DNA of 51,191 nt, from contig JANXYV010000151.1 of NCBI GenBank assembly GCA_025355875.1, positions 1-51,191 on the forward strand, in the 5' to 3' direction. A program made the translations under genes and the position numbers. The notes beneath the pieces are model-generated. The model was not told the origin of the DNA. It did no database searches and saw only the letters and a list, made by a program, of their open reading frames with translations. Of this stretch, positions 1,106-48,697 are shown one piece after another (the first letter of the stretch is position 1; every line of letters starts with the position of its first letter). The DNA comes from Prolixibacteraceae bacterium (lineage in GTDB: Bacteria; Bacteroidota; Bacteroidia; Bacteroidales; Prolixibacteraceae).

Positions 1106-3829
1106 TTACTTGCTGTGTTTTATATTTGCCTGTGCAGCGGCCAAACGTGCGATTGGCACACGGTATGGTGAGCAACTTACGTAGCTCATACCCACTTTGT
1201 CGCAGAATTCAACCGAACTTGGTTCACCGCCGTGTTCGCCGCAAATACCTATCTTCAGGTTTGGTTTGGTCTGGCGGCCACGGGTAACGCCCATTTCAAC
1301 CAGCAATCCAACACCATTCTGATCTAATACCTGGAACGGATCTTGTTTCAGGATACCGCGGTTCAGGTAATCGGGCAGGAATTTGCCGGCATCATCGCGC
1401 GAATAGCCCAAAGTCATCTGGGTTAAATCGTTGGTTCCGAACGAGAAGAAATCAGCTTCGGCGGCAATATGGTCGGCAGTTAAAGCTGCACGTGGAATTT
1501 CGATCATCGTACCTACCTGGTAGTCGATGCGGTCGCCTTTTTCAGCAAACACTTTTTCGGCCACGCTACGGATGATTTCAGTCTGGTTTTTCAATTCAGC
1601 CACTGTTCCAACCAATGGAACCATAATTTCAGGACGGGCATCCACGCCTTTTGCTTTCAGGTTCATGGCTGCTTCGATAATGGCACGGGCCTGCATCGCT
1701 GTAATTTCGGGATAGGTAATTCCCAAACGGCAGCCACGGTGTCCCAACATCGGGTTAAATTCGTGAAGCGATTCTACTTTTTGTTTGACTTGTTCGGCCG
1801 AAATACCCATTTCTTTGGCCATTTCAAGCTGGTTGGCTTCTTCGTGAGGAACAAATTCGTGCAACGGCGGATCGAGCAAACGAATGGTGACGCCGTATCC
1901 GGCCATCGCTTCGAAAATACCTTCGAAATCGCTGCGCTGCATTGGCAGCAGTTTTTCCAAAGCTTTTTCGCGACCGGCCACATCATCGGCCAGAATCATC
2001 TCGCGCATGGCTTTGATGCGTTCGCCTTCGAAAAACATGTGCTCGGTACGGGTCAGTCCGATACCTTGTGCGCCAAAATTGCGGGCAATTTGGGCATCTT
2101 TCGGAGTGTCGGCATTGGTGCGAACGGCCATCCGTTTGTATTTGTCAGCAATTTCCATCAATTCGCCAAAATATCCACTCAATTCAGGATCAATAGTGGC
2201 AATCTTGCCTTCATACACTTCACCCGTAGTTCCGTTCAGTGAGATGAAATCGCCTTCCTTAAAAGTTTTTCCATCACATGTCATTGTGCGAAGTTTATAA
2301 TCGATTTGCAGGGCACCTGCACCCGAAACACAACATTTTCCCATTCCACGGGCCACAACGGCAGCGTGCGAGGTCATGCCTCCACGTGCGGTCAGAATAC
2401 CTTTGGCTACGTTCATTCCGCGTAAATCTTCCGGAGAAGTTTCAATACGAACCAAAACTACACTTTTACCTTGTGCTACCCATTCTTCGGCCTCGTCGGC
2501 AAAGAAAACGATCTGGCCAGTAGCTGCTCCCGGAGATGCAGGCAATCCTTTTGCCAAAACGCGGGCGGCCTTAATGGCTTTTTTATCGAATACAGGGTGC
2601 AATAATTCGTCGAGTTTATTGGGTTCAACGCGCAGCAAAGCGGTTTTTTCGTCAATCAAACCTTCTTTCATCATATCGATGGCAATCTGCACCATGGCAG
2701 CCCCGGTACGTTTTCCACCGCGGGTCTGCAGCATCCACATTTTGCCTTCCTGAATGGTGAACTCCATATCCTGCATATCCTTGTAATGTTTTTCGAGATT
2801 GTTCTGAATTCTGAACAATTCATTGTACATCTGAGGCATTGCTTCTTCGAGAGAAGGATATTTGGCAGCGCGGTCGGCTTCGGAAACTCCGGCCAGTTCG
2901 GCCCATCGTTTCGAGCCTTCGATGGTGATTTGCTGTGGAGTACGGATCCCGGCCACCACATCCTCGCCCTGGGCATTGATCAGGTATTCGCCATTGAAAA
3001 GATTTTCGCCGGTTCCGGCATCGCGGCTAAAACATACGCCTGTTCCTGAAGTTAACCCCATGTTTCCGAATACCATGGCCTGAACATTCACTGCAGTTCC
3101 CCATTCTTCAGGAATCTGGTTCAGCTGACGGTAATAGATAGCACGGTCGTTCATCCAACTGTTGAATACGGCACAGACAGCACCCCAAAGCTGTTCATAC
3201 GAACTTTCAGGAAAATCGTGACCGGTTTTTGCTTTAACTGCAGCTTTGAATTTGGTAACCAGTTCTTTCAGTGCATCCACCGAAAGCTCGTTATCGTTGA
3301 TCACATTTTGTTCGTGCTTAACTTCTTCAAGGATTTCCTCAAATGGATCGATATCGGTTTTTGAAGTTGGTTTCATGTCAAGAACCACGTCGCCATACAT
3401 TTGCACAAAACGGCGGTAGCTGTCCCACACAAAGCGAGGGTTTCCGGTCTTTCTGGCCATTCCTTCCACCACAGTGTCGTTCAAACCGAGGTTCAGGATG
3501 GTATCCATCATACCCGGCATTGATGCGCGTGCGCCTGAACGAACAGAAACCAACAGCGGGTTGGCAGAATCGCCAAATTTGCCGCCGGTTTGAGCTTCCA
3601 CCTGTGCGATTGCTGCTTCGACATCAGCCTTTATCAGTTCAACCACATGTTCCCGACCCAATTTATTGTAGAGGGTACAAACATCGGTAGTGATGGTGAA
3701 TCCCGGGGGAACAGGAACACCAATCAAATTCATTTCTGCAAGGTTTGCACCTTTACCTCCGAGCAAGTTTTTCATGTCAGCTTTGCCTTCAGCTGCGCCA
3801 TTTCCAAACGTGTAAACGTACTTTGTCAT
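1106..3829 (-). CDS. ppdK: Pyruvate, phosphate dikinase
   Basis: Interconverts pyruvate + ATP + Pi and phosphoenolpyruvate + AMP + PPi in the cytoplasm, serving gluconeogenesis or PPi-linked glycolysis. The 907 residues are the usual full length. An N-terminal nucleotide-binding domain ([13 protein letters not shown] at 21-33, [16 protein letters not shown] at 95-110) is followed by the swivelling phosphohistidine domain, with the catalytic His at 488 in GGMTSHAAV. The C-terminal PEP/pyruvate barrel carries the [10 protein letters not shown] segment with its catalytic Cys. The start follows a Bacteroidota-type promoter at 3878-3885 and a terminator lies downstream, so it is probably transcribed alone. 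It is divergent from the small-RNA pair at 3939-4247. No defect is seen. Confidence 0.97.
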
Positions 3830-3938: not shown

Positions 3939-3993
3939 TTAACAATCCTTAACCATCGTTTATACCTCTTAACGACTCCTCGTTGTATATTTG
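3939..3993 (+). promoter_or_regulatory. Promoter of small RNA copy 1 with phased TTAAC boxes
   Basis: A perfect -7 element TATATTTG lies at 3986-3993. TTAAC boxes start at 3939, 3949 (TTAACC) and 3969, spacings of 10 and 20 bp, with 17 bp from the last box to the -7 element. The same spacing recurs before copy 2. The boxes lie on one helical face and look like sites for a dimeric or OmpR/PhoB-type regulator (inference). The one nearest the -7 element may instead be part of the -33 region. Confidence 0.6.
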
Positions 3994-3998
3994 CAGAG

Positions 3999-4090
3999 TA
4001 ATTCACAATAAGAATTCAGACAAGAGGTTTTTTTTCATAGAATAGGTTTGGTTAGGTTAGAAAAGGATGGTTGGGGCCATCCTTTTTTTT
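3999..4090 (+). ncRNA. Putative small RNA, copy 1 of tandem pair
   Basis: A predicted transcript of about 90 nt runs from about 7 nt past the -7 element to a strong terminator. It has no credible open reading frame. The segment from about 4018 is almost identical to copy 2 (three differences in about 73 nt). It contains a U8 tract, a G/U-rich C-poor stretch (GGTTTGGTTAGGTTAG) that could be single-stranded, and a terminator stem. The differences cluster in one wobble-preserving stem position, the hairpin loop and the 5' edge, as expected for a structured RNA. I know no family for it. Confidence 0.6.
4063..4090 (+). terminator. Intrinsic terminator of small RNA copy 1
   Basis: A perfect 8-bp stem (AAGGATGG at 4063-4070, CCATCCTT at 4077-4084) closes a TTGGGG loop and is followed by a T8 run at 4083-4090. 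Confidence 0.85.
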
Positions 4091-4106
4091 ACCACTATTC
4101 TCAGAT

Positions 4107-4161
4107 TTAATATTCTTTAACCTTGGTTCAGATGTGTTAACATTGATCGGATGTATCTTTG
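4107..4161 (+). promoter_or_regulatory. Promoter of small RNA copy 2 with phased TTAAC boxes
   Basis: The -7 element TATCTTTG is at 4154-4161. Boxes start at 4107 (TTAAT), 4117 (TTAACC) and 4137 (TTAAC). These are the same 10, 20 and 17 bp spacings as in copy 1, although the sequence between the boxes has diverged. Confidence 0.6.
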
Positions 4162-4167
4162 CTTCGT

Positions 4168-4247
4168 ACAATTTAGATAAGAGGTTTTTTTTCATAGAAT
4201 AGGTTTGGTTAGGTTAGAAAAGGGTGGCTGGGGCCATCCTTTTTTTT
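4168..4247 (+). ncRNA. Putative small RNA, copy 2 of tandem pair
   Basis: A predicted transcript of about 80 nt. Its body is offset by 157 bp from copy 1 and nearly identical to it, including the U8 tract and the G/U-rich stretch. Its 5' leader is about 11 nt shorter than that of copy 1. It ends in its own terminator about 200 bp before the DUF5009 gene, so it is more likely an independent RNA than a leader. Function unknown. Confidence 0.6.
4220..4247 (+). terminator. Intrinsic terminator of small RNA copy 2
   Basis: The stem AAGGGTGG (4220-4227) pairs with CCATCCTT (4234-4241) with one G-U wobble where copy 1 has A-U. The loop is CTGGGG and a T-run to 4247 follows. The base change keeps the pairing. 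Confidence 0.85.
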
Positions 4248-4447
4248 GACTATATTTTTTTTGATCGAAAATTTTCCCCAGGTTTGCCCTCGAACCACTA
4301 ATTCAACCACACCGTCAGATCAAAAGAACACCAGATACACAATAGGATTTGTGCGTGTGTTTAAATTCTGCAAAAATTTGTTCAACTTTACTGCAAACAA
4401 ATGAAGTTGTCCGATCTTAATTTATCTATGATTTAAAAACTGATCCT

Positions 4448-5569
4448 ATGGAGAATGCCTCAAAAAATCCGGAACCGGTTGTGGCTGGCAGGATTACCTC
4501 TGTTGATTTCTTCCGCGGCTTTACCATGTTCCTTTTGATAGGAGAAAGCACCCATCTTTACAGTCATATCGGTTCAATTCAAGGCAGCAGCCTGATGCAG
4601 TTTTTTGCCACACAACTCGACCATCACGAATGGCACGGACTTCACTTCTGGGACCTGATCCAACCATTTTTCATGTTTATCGTCGGAGTGGCCATTCCAT
4701 TTGCAGTGGCTAACCGGATTAAAAAGGGAGATTCAGATCAGACTATTTTAAACCATGCGCTCAAACGCTCATTTCTCCTGCTTTTTTTGGGATGGGCATT
4801 GTACTGTATCGGACCCGGCGAAATCGTTTTCAGGTTTCAGAACGTGTTGGCTCAATTGTCGGTAACCTATCTGGTTGCATTCCTGATCCGAAAAAAGAGT
4901 GTTACTTTTCAAATCACTTTTACCTTGGTTGTCCTTCTGATGACCGATCTTGCTTACCGGTATTTCCCCGTTGTAGGTTTTAACCATCCCTGGGTGCCAT
5001 TTGAAAATCTGGGCGCCTGGGTCAATAATAAAATTGAAGGGGTTGAGAAGGCTGATATCTGGGCTTCGTTAAATGCGGTTCCGACCATTGCTCACACCGT
5101 TTGGGGAGTTCTTTTCGGCCAGCTCCTGATGAGCGCCCGTCCGGTAAAAAAGAAAATTCAGATCATGCTGATGGCAGGATTTGCCTGTTTACTGATCGGT
5201 TTTTCGCTTGACTTATTGAATATTACGCCAATCATCAAGAAAATTGCCACTGCCTCTTTTGTTTTTGCAAGCGGGGGATGGGCCATCCTCGCGCTTTGTT
5301 TTTCTTACTGGATCATTGATGTCAAAAAGCTATTCGCCGGAGGATCGAAATTTTTTACGGTTGTCGGGATGAACTGCATTTTTATTTACCTCTTTTTTCA
5401 TATTGGAGGCTCCGATCTGATCAGCCGGATTTTTGTGCCTTTTTCCAAACTTCTTTTCTCGTGGAACGGTGAGATATCAGTCAACATTGCGACCAGCCTG
5501 GCAACCTGGTTTTCCTTGTGGTATATTTGCTACTGGTTGTTCAAAAACAAGCTGTTTATTAAGATATAA
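4448..5569 (+). CDS. DUF5009/HGSNAT-like multi-pass membrane acyltransferase
   Basis: A 373-residue polytopic inner-membrane protein with about ten hydrophobic segments. It opens with RITSVDFFRGFTMFLLIGES, the family signature of DUF5009 proteins related to heparan-alpha-glucosaminide N-acetyltransferase (NagX/YeiB-like). His residues in the first loop (LDHHEWHGLHFWDLIQPFFMF, with DHHEWHG near 59) fit the acyl-transfer site known in this superfamily. The expected role is transmembrane acetylation of a sugar such as glucosamine, from knowledge of relatives. It stands alone between the small-RNA pair and the convergent punA gene. Substrate unproven. Confidence 0.8.
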   Translation: MENASKNPEPVVAGRITSVDFFRGFTMFLLIGESTHLYSHIGSIQGSSLMQFFATQLDHHEWHGLHFWDLIQPFFMFIVGVAIPFAVANRIKKGDSDQTILNHALKRSFLLLFLGWALYCIGPGEIVFRFQNVLAQLSVTYLVAFLIRKKSVTFQITFTLVVLLMTDLAYRYFPVVGFNHPWVPFENLGAWVNNKIEGVEKADIWASLNAVPTIAHTVWGVLFGQLLMSARPVKKKIQIMLMAGFACLLIGFSLDLLNITPIIKKIATASFVFASGGWAILALCFSYWIIDVKKLFAGGSKFFTVVGMNCIFIYLFFHIGGSDLISRIFVPFSKLLFSWNGEISVNIATSLATWFSLWYICYWLFKNKLFIKI

Positions 5570-8689: not shown

Positions 8690-8740
8690 GGTAAGAATTT
8701 AGCTCACGCTTTTTTTGTGGGTGATAGTCTTATCTGGATA

Positions 8741-10807
8741 ATGGTGGAAGCGAAAGCCGAAACCATGATCAAAGATATTCTACAGAACAACGAAAACCTG
8801 ACTTCCAATACGCGAACATTGGAAGTTCTTCACGCTCATTTTCCACAATGCTTTAACAAAGAAGGAACCTTTGACATCGACAAGTTTAAAGAACTGGTGC
8901 AAACCAACGTGGATGTAACGCACGAAGGTTACGACCTCAATTTTCTAGGGAAAAACTATGCCAAACTGTTGGCTTCGGTGGAAACTACTACTGTTATACA
9001 GCCGAATATAGAGCACAATGCAAAACCCGAAAACGCCAATAGTCAAAATCTGTATATCAGTGGTGATAACCTTGATGGACTGAAACACTTACTAAAATCG
9101 TATACAGGAGCTGTAAAATGTATCTATATCGACCCGCCTTACAACACAGGTACTGATGGTTTTGTGTATAACGACAAGTTCAACTATACCAACAAAGAAC
9201 TCACGAACAAATTAAGCATAAGCGACGAACAAGCCAATAAAATTCTTGATCTTACCCGCCGTGGTTCTGCTTCTCATTCTGCCTGGCTTACTTTTATGTA
9301 TCCACGCTTATTGCTGGCCCGCGATTTACTCACTTCTGATGGAGTTATTTTTATCTCCATTGACGACAACGAACAAGCCAATTTGAAATTGCTTTGTGAT
9401 AGTATTTTTGGGGAGGAAAATTTGATTTCACAAATTGTTGTTCAATCAAATAAAAGAGGTCAGACTTATAAACAATTAGCTAAGACTCATGAATATCTAC
9501 TCGTTTATGTCAAAAGTGAAAGCAGTATAGTTAATGAACTCAAAAAAGAATTGAATGGCAAGCTAAAATCAGATTCTATTGGGGTATTTTCGGAAAGGGA
9601 GTTAAGAAATAGGAATCCTAAATTTGGAAGATTTAATCGTCCCAACTTATATTATCCGATTTATATCAACCCATATACTATCGATGAAAATGGATATTGC
9701 CCCGTATCATTAACAAGGTCATTAGAGTTTAATGTAGAAGTTTTCCCACTTAACAGCGAAGGCAAAGAAAGTTGTTGGAGATGGGGACCTACGAAACTTA
9801 ACAAAAACATTAGTGAAAATACAGTGGAAAGTAATGCCGTTGGAAGGATTAAAACTACTGGAGAGTATGGTGTTTATGAAAAATACAGAAAGGAAACTTT
9901 TAAAGCAAAAACAATTTGGTTTGAAGATATTGTAATCTCTAACGAAGATGATGATGAGGATGAAATCTGGGATGAAACTGGAGTTATCACTGAGCAGGGT
10001 TCAACTGAATTGAGAAAATATGATATGGGAGATGTTTTTGATTTCCCTAAACCAACTTTCCTTGTGAAAAAGGTTTTGGAATTAGGTTCTGATATTGACT
10101 CATTTTGTTTGGACTTTTTTTCAGGTTCAGGGTCACTTGCAGAATCAGTATTAAGGTTAAATTCAAATTTAGGTAATAGAAAATTTATTTCTATTCAACT
10201 TCCTGAAAACCTAGACAATAAACTTAAAAATAGTTCAGCTTCTGATAGGGCGAAAGTACAGAAGGTCATTGATTTCATGGATATAAACTCATATCCTCAC
10301 ACATTGGACAACATTGGCTTTGAACGTATAAAACGTGCGGCCGCCAAAATAAAAGCCGAAACAGGTGCAGATATCGACTACGGGTTCAAGCATTATACTT
10401 TGGTTGAACCATCGGCAGATACCTTGGACAAATTAGAAGAGTTTAAAGCCTACGAATTGTTTACCAATAACGACACTTTGAGCCTTTTTGGCAAAGAAAC
10501 GGTACTCGAAACATGGTTGGTAAAAGATGGTTATGGCTTTGGGGCAAAAGTGCAGGAGGTAAAATTAGCCGATTATACAGCTTACCTTTGTGGAAAGCAC
10601 CTGTATTTTATTGAAGCGGACATTGATGAAAACGACATGGTGGCTTTGCTCGACAAATATCAGGCAGAATCTGCTTTTAGTCCCGAAAACATTGTGATAT
10701 TCGGTTATAGTTTCAATTTTTCGCAAACCGAAATGCTGCGCAAAAACTTGTTTGTGCTAAAAGACAGCCACAAAAACCTGAAAGCAAATTTCGATATCCG
10801 TTACTAA
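8741..10807 (+). CDS. mod: Type III restriction-modification system, DNA methyltransferase (Mod)
   Basis: N6-adenine methyltransferase that also provides target recognition for the type III complex. The catalytic motif DPPYNTG is at residues 131-137 and precedes the AdoMet-binding FFSGSGS at 459-465, the beta-class order of Mod subunits. The central region between them (about 9410-10270) is visibly more AT-rich than the ends and would hold the target recognition domain. The start is uncertain: a GTG at 8717, ATGs at 8741 and 8765 are all in frame. I took the first ATG. Res follows after 4 nt, so the two form an operon. The promoter was not identified, but the palindrome at 8556-8689 sits directly upstream. 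Confidence 0.93.
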   Translation: MVEAKAETMIKDILQNNENLTSNTRTLEVLHAHFPQCFNKEGTFDIDKFKELVQTNVDVTHEGYDLNFLGKNYAKLLASVETTTVIQPNIEHNAKPENANSQNLYISGDNLDGLKHLLKSYTGAVKCIYIDPPYNTGTDGFVYNDKFNYTNKELTNKLSISDEQANKILDLTRRGSASHSAWLTFMYPRLLLARDLLTSDGVIFISIDDNEQANLKLLCDSIFGEENLISQIVVQSNKRGQTYKQLAKTHEYLLVYVKSESSIVNELKKELNGKLKSDSIGVFSERELRNRNPKFGRFNRPNLYYPIYINPYTIDENGYCPVSLTRSLEFNVEVFPLNSEGKESCWRWGPTKLNKNISENTVESNAVGRIKTTGEYGVYEKYRKETFKAKTIWFEDIVISNEDDDEDEIWDETGVITEQGSTELRKYDMGDVFDFPKPTFLVKKVLELGSDIDSFCLDFFSGSGSLAESVLRLNSNLGNRKFISIQLPENLDNKLKNSSASDRAKVQKVIDFMDINSYPHTLDNIGFERIKRAAAKIKAETGADIDYGFKHYTLVEPSADTLDKLEEFKAYELFTNNDTLSLFGKETVLETWLVKDGYGFGAKVQEVKLADYTAYLCGKHLYFIEADIDENDMVALLDKYQAESAFSPENIVIFGYSFNFSQTEMLRKNLFVLKDSHKNLKANFDIRY

Positions 10808-14903: not shown

Positions 14904-16371
14904 TGTCTTTCAGTATTCTTTCAGTTACTAACCGGGAGCTGATTACCACCATGGGAAGTCCGGTTCCAGGTACCGTTGATGCGCCCACATAATACAAGTT
15001 GCTGAATTTCTCATCCTTGTTTTTTGGACGAAAACCTCCAACCTGATTCAGGTCGTGAGCCAAACCCAGACCACTTCCGCGGTACAATCCAAACGTGTTT
15101 TGCCAGTGTTCTGGATTCAGGACGATTCTGGTCTCGGTATGTTTTTTAAAATCAAACCCGGTCCGTTCGCCCAGATCCTGAATGATGCCATCGGCAATTT
15201 CCTGATCGTCGCTCCAATCGGGTTTGTACCTTAAATCAGGAACGGGACAAAGTATAAAGATACATTCTTTTCCCGGAGGAGCATAACCGGGATTGTGCAT
15301 CGACTGGATATTGACGTAATAGTAGGGTTTGTCGAGCTTAATTTTATTCCTGAAAATTTTCGCCGCATATTCCTGAAAATTTCTTCTCAGAAAGTAATTG
15401 TGGTGGTACATCTCCGGAACTTTGGTGTCAAGCCCCAAATAGATGGTCAGTGGGGCGAGAGTCCATTTTTTTACATCCAGTTTCTCAGACGAAAAGGCTG
15501 GCCGTTTCAAAACTCCGCCACGAAATCCTGCAGCATCGGCATTGACCACAAACTGGTCAGCTTTCCACTCTTTTCCCGAACGGTCAGTAAACCAGAAGAT
15601 TTTCCCATTTTCTTCTGAAAAGCTGACGATTTCGGTGTTATAATGGATTTTTACTCCCCGGTTTTCGAGTTCCCGAAGAAGCCCTTCCACAATTTTGTAC
15701 ATTCCGCCTTTCACATTGTAATAACCATCATGAACCAATTCGGTGTAATTCAGTAAGGTATAAACGGCTGGAGTGTCGAAAGGCGTAGCTCCGAGGAAAA
15801 ACCCAACCAGCGAAAATATCACTTTGACTTCAAAGGATTCGAAATTCTGCTCCATTTCGGTCCACATCGACCGAAACATTTTTGGTGCATGTTTGATCGG
15901 AACAGTGGTCAATTTAAGCAGATATTGAGCCAAAGAATCGAAATTTTGATGGATAACTATCTTTTCGGTATCATGAAAAATCTGACCTGCGGCTTTTAGA
16001 AACTTGTGCAACTTCTTCTCAAAATCGGGTTCCAGATGTTGGAATTCAAGCGCCAGTTTTTTTAAATCTTTATAAATTAAATAGCTACGCGAATCGCCTT
16101 CAAAGTGAACCGAATAAAGTGGATCAAGTTCCACAAATTCGAAGGGCATCCGGATGTTGCAATCATTGACCAATTCCTGAAATTCATAACTCATGCTGAA
16201 GAACGTCGGGGCCATGTCGAATTTGAATCCATCTTTCTCCAGCAGGTTGAGCCTTCCTCCCGCACGATGGTATTGTTCGACCATCTCCACCTCGTATCCT
16301 CTCGAGGTTAAGCGAAGGGCGGTGCTCAATCCTCCAAGTCCGGTACCGATGATGAGAATTTTCTTCTGCAT
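14881..16371 (-). CDS. crtI: Phytoene desaturase
   Basis: FAD-dependent desaturase converting phytoene stepwise to lycopene-type products. The 496 residues begin with the dinucleotide-binding motif KKILIIGTGLGGLSTALRL and the acidic end VEMVEQYHRAGGR. The C-terminal CrtI signature region reads YYVGASTVPGTGLPMVVISS, typical of bacterial phytoene dehydrogenases. It is the first gene of the leftward crtI-crtB unit, divergent from crtD with about 100 bp between, where promoters for both sides must lie. The number of desaturation steps cannot be read from sequence. Confidence 0.92.
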   Translation of the reverse strand: MQKKILIIGTGLGGLSTALRLTSRGYEVEMVEQYHRAGGRLNLLEKDGFKFDMAPTFFSMSYEFQELVNDCNIRMPFEFVELDPLYSVHFEGDSRSYLIYKDLKKLALEFQHLEPDFEKKLHKFLKAAGQIFHDTEKIVIHQNFDSLAQYLLKLTTVPIKHAPKMFRSMWTEMEQNFESFEVKVIFSLVGFFLGATPFDTPAVYTLLNYTELVHDGYYNVKGGMYKIVEGLLRELENRGVKIHYNTEIVSFSEENGKIFWFTDRSGKEWKADQFVVNADAAGFRGGVLKRPAFSSEKLDVKKWTLAPLTIYLGLDTKVPEMYHHNYFLRRNFQEYAAKIFRNKIKLDKPYYYVNIQSMHNPGYAPPGKECIFILCPVPDLRYKPDWSDDQEIADGIIQDLGERTGFDFKKHTETRIVLNPEHWQNTFGLYRGSGLGLAHDLNQVGGFRPKNKDEKFSNLYYVGASTVPGTGLPMVVISSRLVTERILKDNGYLPEK

Positions 16372-48587: not shown

Positions 48588-48625
48588 AAAAAAAGCGGAG
48601 AAGCATGATTTGCTCCTCCGCTTTT
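48588..48625 (-). terminator. Intrinsic terminator downstream of the second FISUMP gene
   Basis: AAAAGCGGAG (48591-48600) pairs perfectly with CTCCGCTTTT (48616-48625), followed on the minus strand by a T-run. It is similar to the terminator at 43163-43201. An additional weak hairpin lies at about 48561-48583. Confidence 0.8.
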
Positions 48626-48697
48626 AAAGCTAAAAGTTAATTCATTATGAAAAGTAATTTCTGATTTATTTGTTTAAAGTTTGTCCATCAGTTTGTT

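Follow-up and report, generated by a model that had tools for sequence, protein, structure and literature searches.

The RNAs described so far that most resemble those reported here are the FopS RNAs, a multicopy sRNA family of the Bacteroidaceae whose consensus, as presented in PMC11697453, is a single-stranded 5' stretch followed by a terminator. By that account, B. thetaiotaomicron has 14 FopS RNAs whose 5' seed pairs with susC start regions so that translation is repressed, the RRM protein RbpB counteracts these RNAs, and the authors regard the family as highly conserved within the Bacteroidaceae and possibly under an unknown regulator (PMC11697453). A literature search for FopS beyond Bacteroides listed two papers, one of which is PMC12119571. 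GibS, as described in PMC7366714, likewise has a seed in its single-stranded 5' part that pairs with target start regions, but it is 145 nt long, carries a second seed (R2) and has a PM2 promoter, whereas the units reported here are predicted to be 80-91 nt long. Rfp18 of Flavobacterium psychrophilum is likewise a conserved Bacteroidota sRNA with several mRNA targets; unlike the RNAs of this locus it is, by the account in PMC9723704, strongly structured, pairs via its third stem-loop and has protease targets.

In the window (the whole 51,191-nt stretch of Prolixibacteraceae DNA that was analysed), we find two near-identical units in tandem beside ppdK. We propose, with a probability of roughly two in three, that these units are tandem trans-acting sRNAs that form a distant FopS branch, are driven by a regulator through TTAAC repeats and block MKK-type starts, with those of SusC favoured. 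The features are as follows.

1106..3829, minus strand: ppdK, with Pfam PPDK domains, the divergent neighbour of the array
3939..3993, plus strand: copy 1 promoter, TTAAC repeats, then 12 nt, then the -7 box TATATTTG at 3986-3993
3939-3943 (-47), 3949-3953 (-37), 3959 (-27), 3969-3973 (-17): copy 1 array, reading TTAAC, TTAAC, TT, TTAAC
4000..4090, plus strand: predicted copy 1 sRNA, about 91 nt, taken to start about 7 nt past the -7 box
4028..4040, plus strand: proposed seed of copy 1, UUUUUUUUCAUAG, reverse complement of CTATGAAAAAAAA
4043..4060, plus strand: G/U-rich extension of copy 1, UAGGUUUGGUUAGGUUAG, complementary to 5' UTRs of the CTAACC/CCAAACC type
4059..4088, plus strand: terminator hairpin of copy 1, from folding and covariation
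4107..4161, plus strand: copy 2 promoter, repeats, then 12 nt, then the -7 box TATCTTTG at 4154-4161
4107-4111 (-47), 4117-4121 (-37), 4127 (-27), 4137-4141 (-17): copy 2 array, reading TTAAT, TTAAC, TT, TTAAC
4168..4247, plus strand: predicted copy 2 sRNA, about 80 nt, 5' end inferred
4185..4197, plus strand: proposed seed of copy 2, identical to that of copy 1
4216..4245, plus strand: terminator hairpin of copy 2, from folding
4448-5569, plus strand: downstream gene, 373 aa, labelled DUF5009 in the sequence-only reading, with a NagX-type match below cut-off and without a Pfam match

The sequence-only reading had described the locus as two promoter-RNA-terminator units next to a PPDK gene, resembling duplicated trans-acting sRNAs with an unstructured pairing region, and this description holds. 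Each unit has a Bacteroidota -7 box (TAnnTTTG; 3986-3993 and 4154-4161) and a hairpin followed by a U-run, and the 72-nt cores are 95.8% identical. Three differences separate the cores: one at the 5' edge, one a stem change from A-U to G.U and one, in the predicted fold, a change of the loop-closing pair from U.G to C-G; the first two agree with the earlier description, which had placed the third within the terminator loop. The repeat itself consists of 87-nt copies (4013-4099 and 4170-4256; 91% identity) at a spacing of 157 nt, and the promoter elements, at 3949 and 4117, are separated by 168 nt, so the interval of 157-168 given earlier combines two distances. In many congeners (L012, L014 and others) there is one GGUUAGGU-type and one GGUUUUGUGAG-type copy. 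In the window (3999-4247) both cores are of the first (GGUUAGGU) type even though the copy 2 leader resembles that of the second (GGUUUUGUGAG) type, a pattern suggestive of gene conversion or replacement.

Most, though not all, measures indicate covariation in the terminator stem. Within the alignment of related copies, 94.1% of the stem cells are paired, 6 of the 11 pairs have changes on both sides (equalled by 6 of 500 shuffles) and the covariation score is equalled by none of 500 shuffles; the count of further pair types in the stem is not unusual (117 of 500 shuffles reach it). The two cores fold at -16.0 and -17.1 kcal/mol, with z-scores of -2.5, -1.0, -2.2 and -1.9 for four ways of cutting. 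A simple terminator scan reported neither of the unit hairpins and gave a sole match at 3549-3565.

At Rfam's curated cut-offs (gathering scores) there is no match in the window, and the sequence-only reading had known of no matching family in Bacteroidota. That statement does not survive: FopS (RF04319) shares the layout, and each copy can be aligned to its model over the full length, albeit with a score under the gathering threshold. When the stretch alone is searched at E <= 10, 18 matches are obtained, the best two of which are RF04319 (copy 1 at 4027-4092, 29.0 bits, E 0.016; copy 2 at 4184-4249, 29.9 bits, E 0.01) and the next of which has an E of 0.32. Both alignments cover the whole model (positions 1-71 of 71), and seed, extension and terminator follow one another as they do in FopS. 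The RF04319 gathering score of 56 bits is not reached by these copies or by the best match in the genus (38.6 bits; best scores per genome 30-39 bits), and because of this shortfall in the defining score we do not file the window RNAs under RF04319. Even so, among the 23 congeneric genomes, 20 have a window-family copy as their best RF04319 match; in G016 that match is at another place, and its position is not listed for G001 and G006. RF04319 exceeds its cut-off in 5 of 61 genomes, all from other families, where further loci score 35-44 bits. Of 247 genomes drawn evenly from the class, eight have an RF04319 match at E <= 0.001 (seven over the cut-off), and the window's own genome is not among the eight.

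For the reciprocal comparison we used a covariance model, R1, made from 26 copies of the window family; its rows were picked by eye from 47 stretches, all chosen by a T-run plus CATA, one of which (L037) is the antisense of a SusC start. R1 matches copy 1 at 4029-4090 (84.7 bits) and copy 2 at 4186-4247 (84.3 bits), each sequence being itself part of the model. It also matches all eight RF04319 loci (about 3 kb each) at the RF04319 positions, with 23-34 bits on L038-L042, which are over the RF04319 cut-off, and 27-40 bits on L043-L045, which are below it; across 800 kb, sequence other than known copies scores up to 27.8 bits with R1, which overlaps the 23-34 bits on true FopS. Genome-wide at E <= 0.01, R1 finds nothing in G038 and G047, the sole two of the 41 genomes searched that have over-cut-off RF04319 matches. 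Judged from sequence, the window RNAs are FopS-like and probably homologous to FopS as a distant branch, and the case for this is one of agreement in position and order, not of any single score. Both groups are multicopy and share a TAnnTTTG (sigma-ABfr-type) promoter, a single-stranded 5' U5-8 CAU(A/g)G seed followed by a GGUUA-type extension, a Rho-independent terminator and predicted pairing with susC start regions. In contrast to FopS, the window RNAs stand in a tandem array beside ppdK, have a longer leader before the seed and number three in their own genome (E <= 0.01) against 14. If the relationship is real, start-codon-blocking sRNAs extend to another family of the order. Two RF04319 matches elsewhere in the genome (G000:C180:724-798 and G000:C120:21250-21302) were considered as further sRNA members and set aside; by eye they are antisense to gene starts and look like targets, and the FopS model may thus also flag likely targets.

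By DNA search, 30 of 61 genomes contain the core. Besides the window's own genome they include 20 of 22 congeners and 9 of 14 genomes from other genera of the family; none of the 24 genomes outside the family has it. In the covariance search that the sequence-only reading had suggested, 31 of 41 genomes have an R1 match at E <= 0.01. These comprise every one of the 23 from the genus, the two other family members searched and, among other families of the order, 6 of 16. At this threshold there are one to six matches per genome across the 23 genomes of the genus; the three in the window's own genome are the tandem pair and C43:6047-6124. Among named genomes, a pattern scan gave 17 contigs (ten Prolixibacteraceae, six Bacteroidetes/Bacteroidota and one Chitinophaga pinensis), whose PpdK proteins are 70-95% identical to the window's. 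The contig titled Chitinophaga pinensis (L138, CAMDGL010000239.1) is from a MAG and carries the core and a PpdK that is 93.6% identical; its name is probably wrong. PpdK adjoins the RNA in 56 of 71 loci (24 of 29 from the DNA search, 15 of 25 from the R1 search and 17 of 17 named contigs), a set in which some loci repeat one place, one (L103) is the window's own and 54 have flanks of only about 1.5 kb. If our reading is true, ppdK is a recurring genomic address for start-codon-blocking sRNAs.

Upstream of both units lies an element that the sequence-only reading did not mention. TAnnTTTG occurs 5-60 nt upstream in 41 of 47 related copies, where mononucleotide shuffles give 2.4 expected. Among 44 promoters aligned at the -7 box (those in which a relaxed box is preceded by enough sequence; L018 is anchored at a wrong box), nearly all have TTAAC at -37 and -17, and the consensus also has TTAA at -47 and TT at -27, which together make a 10-bp register. 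A strict form of this pattern, TTAA-N6-TT-N8-TTAAC-N(9-15)-TAnnTTTG, has two sites in the 5.18-Mb genome, both of them the window sRNA promoters, and the reversed-pattern control has none. Across genomes it is present in 30 of 61 (66 places; 2 matches for the reversed pattern), and the distance from the last repeat to the -7 box is exactly 12 nt in all 59 distinct occurrences read, although 9-15 was permitted. Most occurrences are copies already known by sequence. By a loose script rule, a seed-like stretch lies within 260 nt of the pattern in 49 of the 59; read by eye, five of the other ten also have one (L222, the second of L249, L257, L262 and, weaker, L259), L255 is doubtful, L260 has an R1 match about 280 nt downstream, and L224, L251 and L254 have no fitting RNA stretch. 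Nine occurrences, L224 and L260 among them, are in other families (G042, G046, G051 and G052) with diverged RNA, and tandem pairs are also found in G046 and G051; the element alone also flagged such RNAs where the RNA sequence has diverged. The third member in the window's own genome has TTAAC at -47 and -37 and none at -17. The matches listed in a literature search held nothing relevant on a TTAAC element. We regard the TTAAC array as a new, highly specific control element.

The FopS promoters are arranged differently. Whereas the window units carry TTAAC at -47, -37 and -17, 13 of 34 RF04319-locus promoters have a TTAA/TTA pair near -62/-52 (TTAA at -65 to -60 with TTA 9-11 bp further; 0.5 expected and a maximum of 3 in 300 shuffles, the range having been chosen after inspection of the data). 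The distance from box to RNA is 7 nt in all 34, while in the window family the spacing from box to seed is mostly 20-38 nt.

Direct repeats at a 10-bp period, set beside the half-site layouts of this class, point to a dimeric OmpR/CpxR-like protein, probably a winged-helix response regulator, which would bind the array. In enterobacteria, OmrA and OmrB are a homologous, adjacent sRNA pair under OmpR that represses TonB-dependent receptors with the help of Hfq. The window RNAs are also a homologous pair, but are unrelated to OmrA/OmrB in sequence, and their regulator is a predicted one. A bolder extension, to which we give somewhat less than even odds, is that the FopS-like anti-start-codon sRNAs across the Bacteroidales are the main regulon, and in some genomes the sole one, of one dedicated envelope- or nutrient-sensing regulator of this direct-repeat-binding, OmpR/CpxR-like kind. 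If true, this would be a separately evolved Bacteroidota counterpart of the OmpR-OmrA/B circuit for down-regulating TonB-dependent transporters, and the 10-bp-phased element would be a handle for isolating the regulator of start-codon-blocking sRNAs.

The 5' stretch U8-CAUAG is antisense to CTATGAAAAAAAA, the start of MKK genes. U6-CAUAG is invariant in the 26-row alignment, which is partly selection as rows were picked by T-run plus CATA. The seed aligns to UUUUUCAUgG of the FopS model, and the G/U extension UAGGUUUGGUUAGGUUAG aligns with AUUAGAUUUAAGGUUAA. The sequence-only reading had singled out a conserved G/U-rich stretch for pairing and for target prediction; this stretch does contribute to the best predicted duplexes, but among unpaired positions conservation is highest in the U6-8 CAUAG just before it, and the G/U part alone gives a p of 0.07 in the comparison below against 5e-6 for the seed part alone (own genome). 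In L022 the extension is lengthened by repeated GGTTA units and so varies between species like a short tandem repeat.

Using predicted duplex energies, which ignore accessibility, we find excess complementarity to SusC starts in two species, much of which MKK starts explain. In the window's own genome, TIGR04056 has 40 matches, of which the 14 over the curated cut-off were used as SusC starts and 13 weaker ones for contrast (L060, L061, L071 and ten matches without loci were left out). The SusC starts average -21.3 kcal/mol against -15.5 for 343 gene starts, each taken as the first ATG, from 400 kb and the window (p 2.9e-6); the start of L055 was moved to the second ATG (MKKIIQ), and the SusC mean is -20.6 with it unmoved. 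The contrast is reached by none of 200 shuffled sRNAs (made with 120 of the 343 background genes) and gives a p of 2.2e-4 against the 13 weaker TIGR04056 matches and of 0.01 against 16 other MKK genes. The best target, L046 (SusC, NCBIfam), has a duplex of -31.8 kcal/mol that runs from the leader across the start codon into codon 6 and beats all 343 background starts. In the congener G012, with its own sRNA, 15 SusC starts (of 57 matches, those with loci) exceed 262 gene starts (p 2.3e-4; two other tandem copies, p 1.5e-4 and 1.6e-4), and none of 150 shuffles (made with 100 of the 262 background genes) reaches the contrast; these starts are not clearly better than 13 MKK genes of G012 (p 0.14). 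L161 of G012, the ortholog of L046, reaches -25.3 kcal/mol, and 15 of the 56 G018 SusC matches (again those with loci), tested against the sRNA and background of G012, give a p of 1.7e-3. SusC starts stand out against other MKK starts in the window's own genome (p 0.01) but not clearly in G012 (p 0.14), so a large share of the signal is accounted for by ATGAAAAAA itself. Most of the target signal can be put down to the anti-start seed, and extra leader pairing is seen for some targets only.

Based on these data, we propose the following mechanism. A regulator that binds the 10-bp-phased TTAAC direct repeats would switch on both promoters, each yielding an RNA of 80-91 nt with a single-stranded 5' part and a terminator. 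U8-CAUAG would base-pair over the start codon of MKK-type mRNAs and the A-rich (Lys) codons that directly follow it, and the G/U-rich part would anneal to 5' UTR stretches rich in A and C, for example CTAACC or TCAAA, so that ribosomes would be unable to initiate on the paired mRNA start; SusC-type outer-membrane transporters would be the favoured targets. Anatomy, conservation, covariation, FopS similarity, the phased promoter and SusC-start complementarity are all computational observations; common descent with FopS, expression of the predicted sRNAs, the regulator and repression in vivo are proposed. A single RRM_1 protein is encoded in the genome; it is 156 aa long when read from the first ATG, ends in a glycine-rich tail and may play some part with the sRNAs. 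Hfq gave no match at E <= 0.001.

The resemblance to FopS might instead have arisen by convergence, in a trans-acting sRNA family that came independently to an anti-start U-run and a terminator. For a phylum that lacks Shine-Dalgarno sequences, a seed against the start codon is an obvious choice, and low complexity favours chance similarity; the sub-cut-off RF04319 scores, the failure of R1 to find FopS genome-wide in two of two genomes and the difference between 7 nt from box to RNA in RF04319 loci and mostly 20-38 nt from box to T-run here all fit this explanation. Convergence has more difficulty with a full-length RF04319 alignment in which three elements follow in matching order, with the window family being the genome-wide best RF04319 match in 20 of 23 genomes, with loci in other families that both models match at the same places and, subject to its post hoc range, with the TTAA/TTA pair in 13 of 34 RF04319 promoters against 0.5 expected. 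We therefore consider convergence unlikely and favour common descent of the window RNAs and FopS. We are similarly doubtful that the main target is one or a few dedicated mRNAs, for example for exported proteins with CTAACC-type leaders, with the SusC pairing incidental. The best G012 duplex does belong to such a candidate, a gene for a 292-aa protein with the leader AACCTAACCCAACCTTATGCAAAAAC (L184, reverse strand near 16184; -33.2 kcal/mol against the G012 sRNA) that beats every SusC start tested in G012 and whose antisense R1 matches at 24.7 bits; the gene adjoining the array scores -24.6, and several non-SusC genes outscore most SusC genes. Enrichment of the SusC class in both species and the FopS precedent argue against dedicated targets.

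The sequence-only reading had named a longer coding or leader transcript as an outcome that would overturn it, and we reject that role as very improbable. The downstream gene at 4448-5569 does lie on the same strand about 200 nt away, which would suit a leader or attenuator, but a promoter and a terminator are predicted for each copy separately, and that gene was seen at the window's own locus only among the 71 loci (54 with flanks of about 1.5 kb). A small coding RNA is also hard to reconcile with the sequences, as core lengths vary across all frames (the 47 extracted stretches, the non-sRNA L037 among them, cover all three residues modulo 3). In agreement with the earlier statement that there is no open reading frame, the sole plus-strand ATG of copy 1 lies inside the terminator stem and is absent from copy 2, and a coding role of the units is unlikely.

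Two weaker R1 matches deserve mention beside the tandem sRNAs. At 48588-48656 of the window (minus strand; 23.2 bits), UUUUCAUAAUGAAUUAAC is followed by a terminator-like hairpin; this is possibly a remote member or a chance match, and because its score is below the best background score we do not count it. In L077 (13733-13804, about C62 33733-33804 of the window's own genome; 27.8 bits, the maximum for sequence other than known copies), U7-CAUUGAG and UUAGUUAGGUUUAGUUACGG precede a hairpin, and this may be a further, diverged family member. A plasmid-borne element was also considered and dropped, as a plasmid collection gave no match. Elsewhere in the window (8717-10807, plus strand) lies a type III restriction-modification methyltransferase-like gene with N6_N4_Mtase and EcoP15I C-terminal domains.
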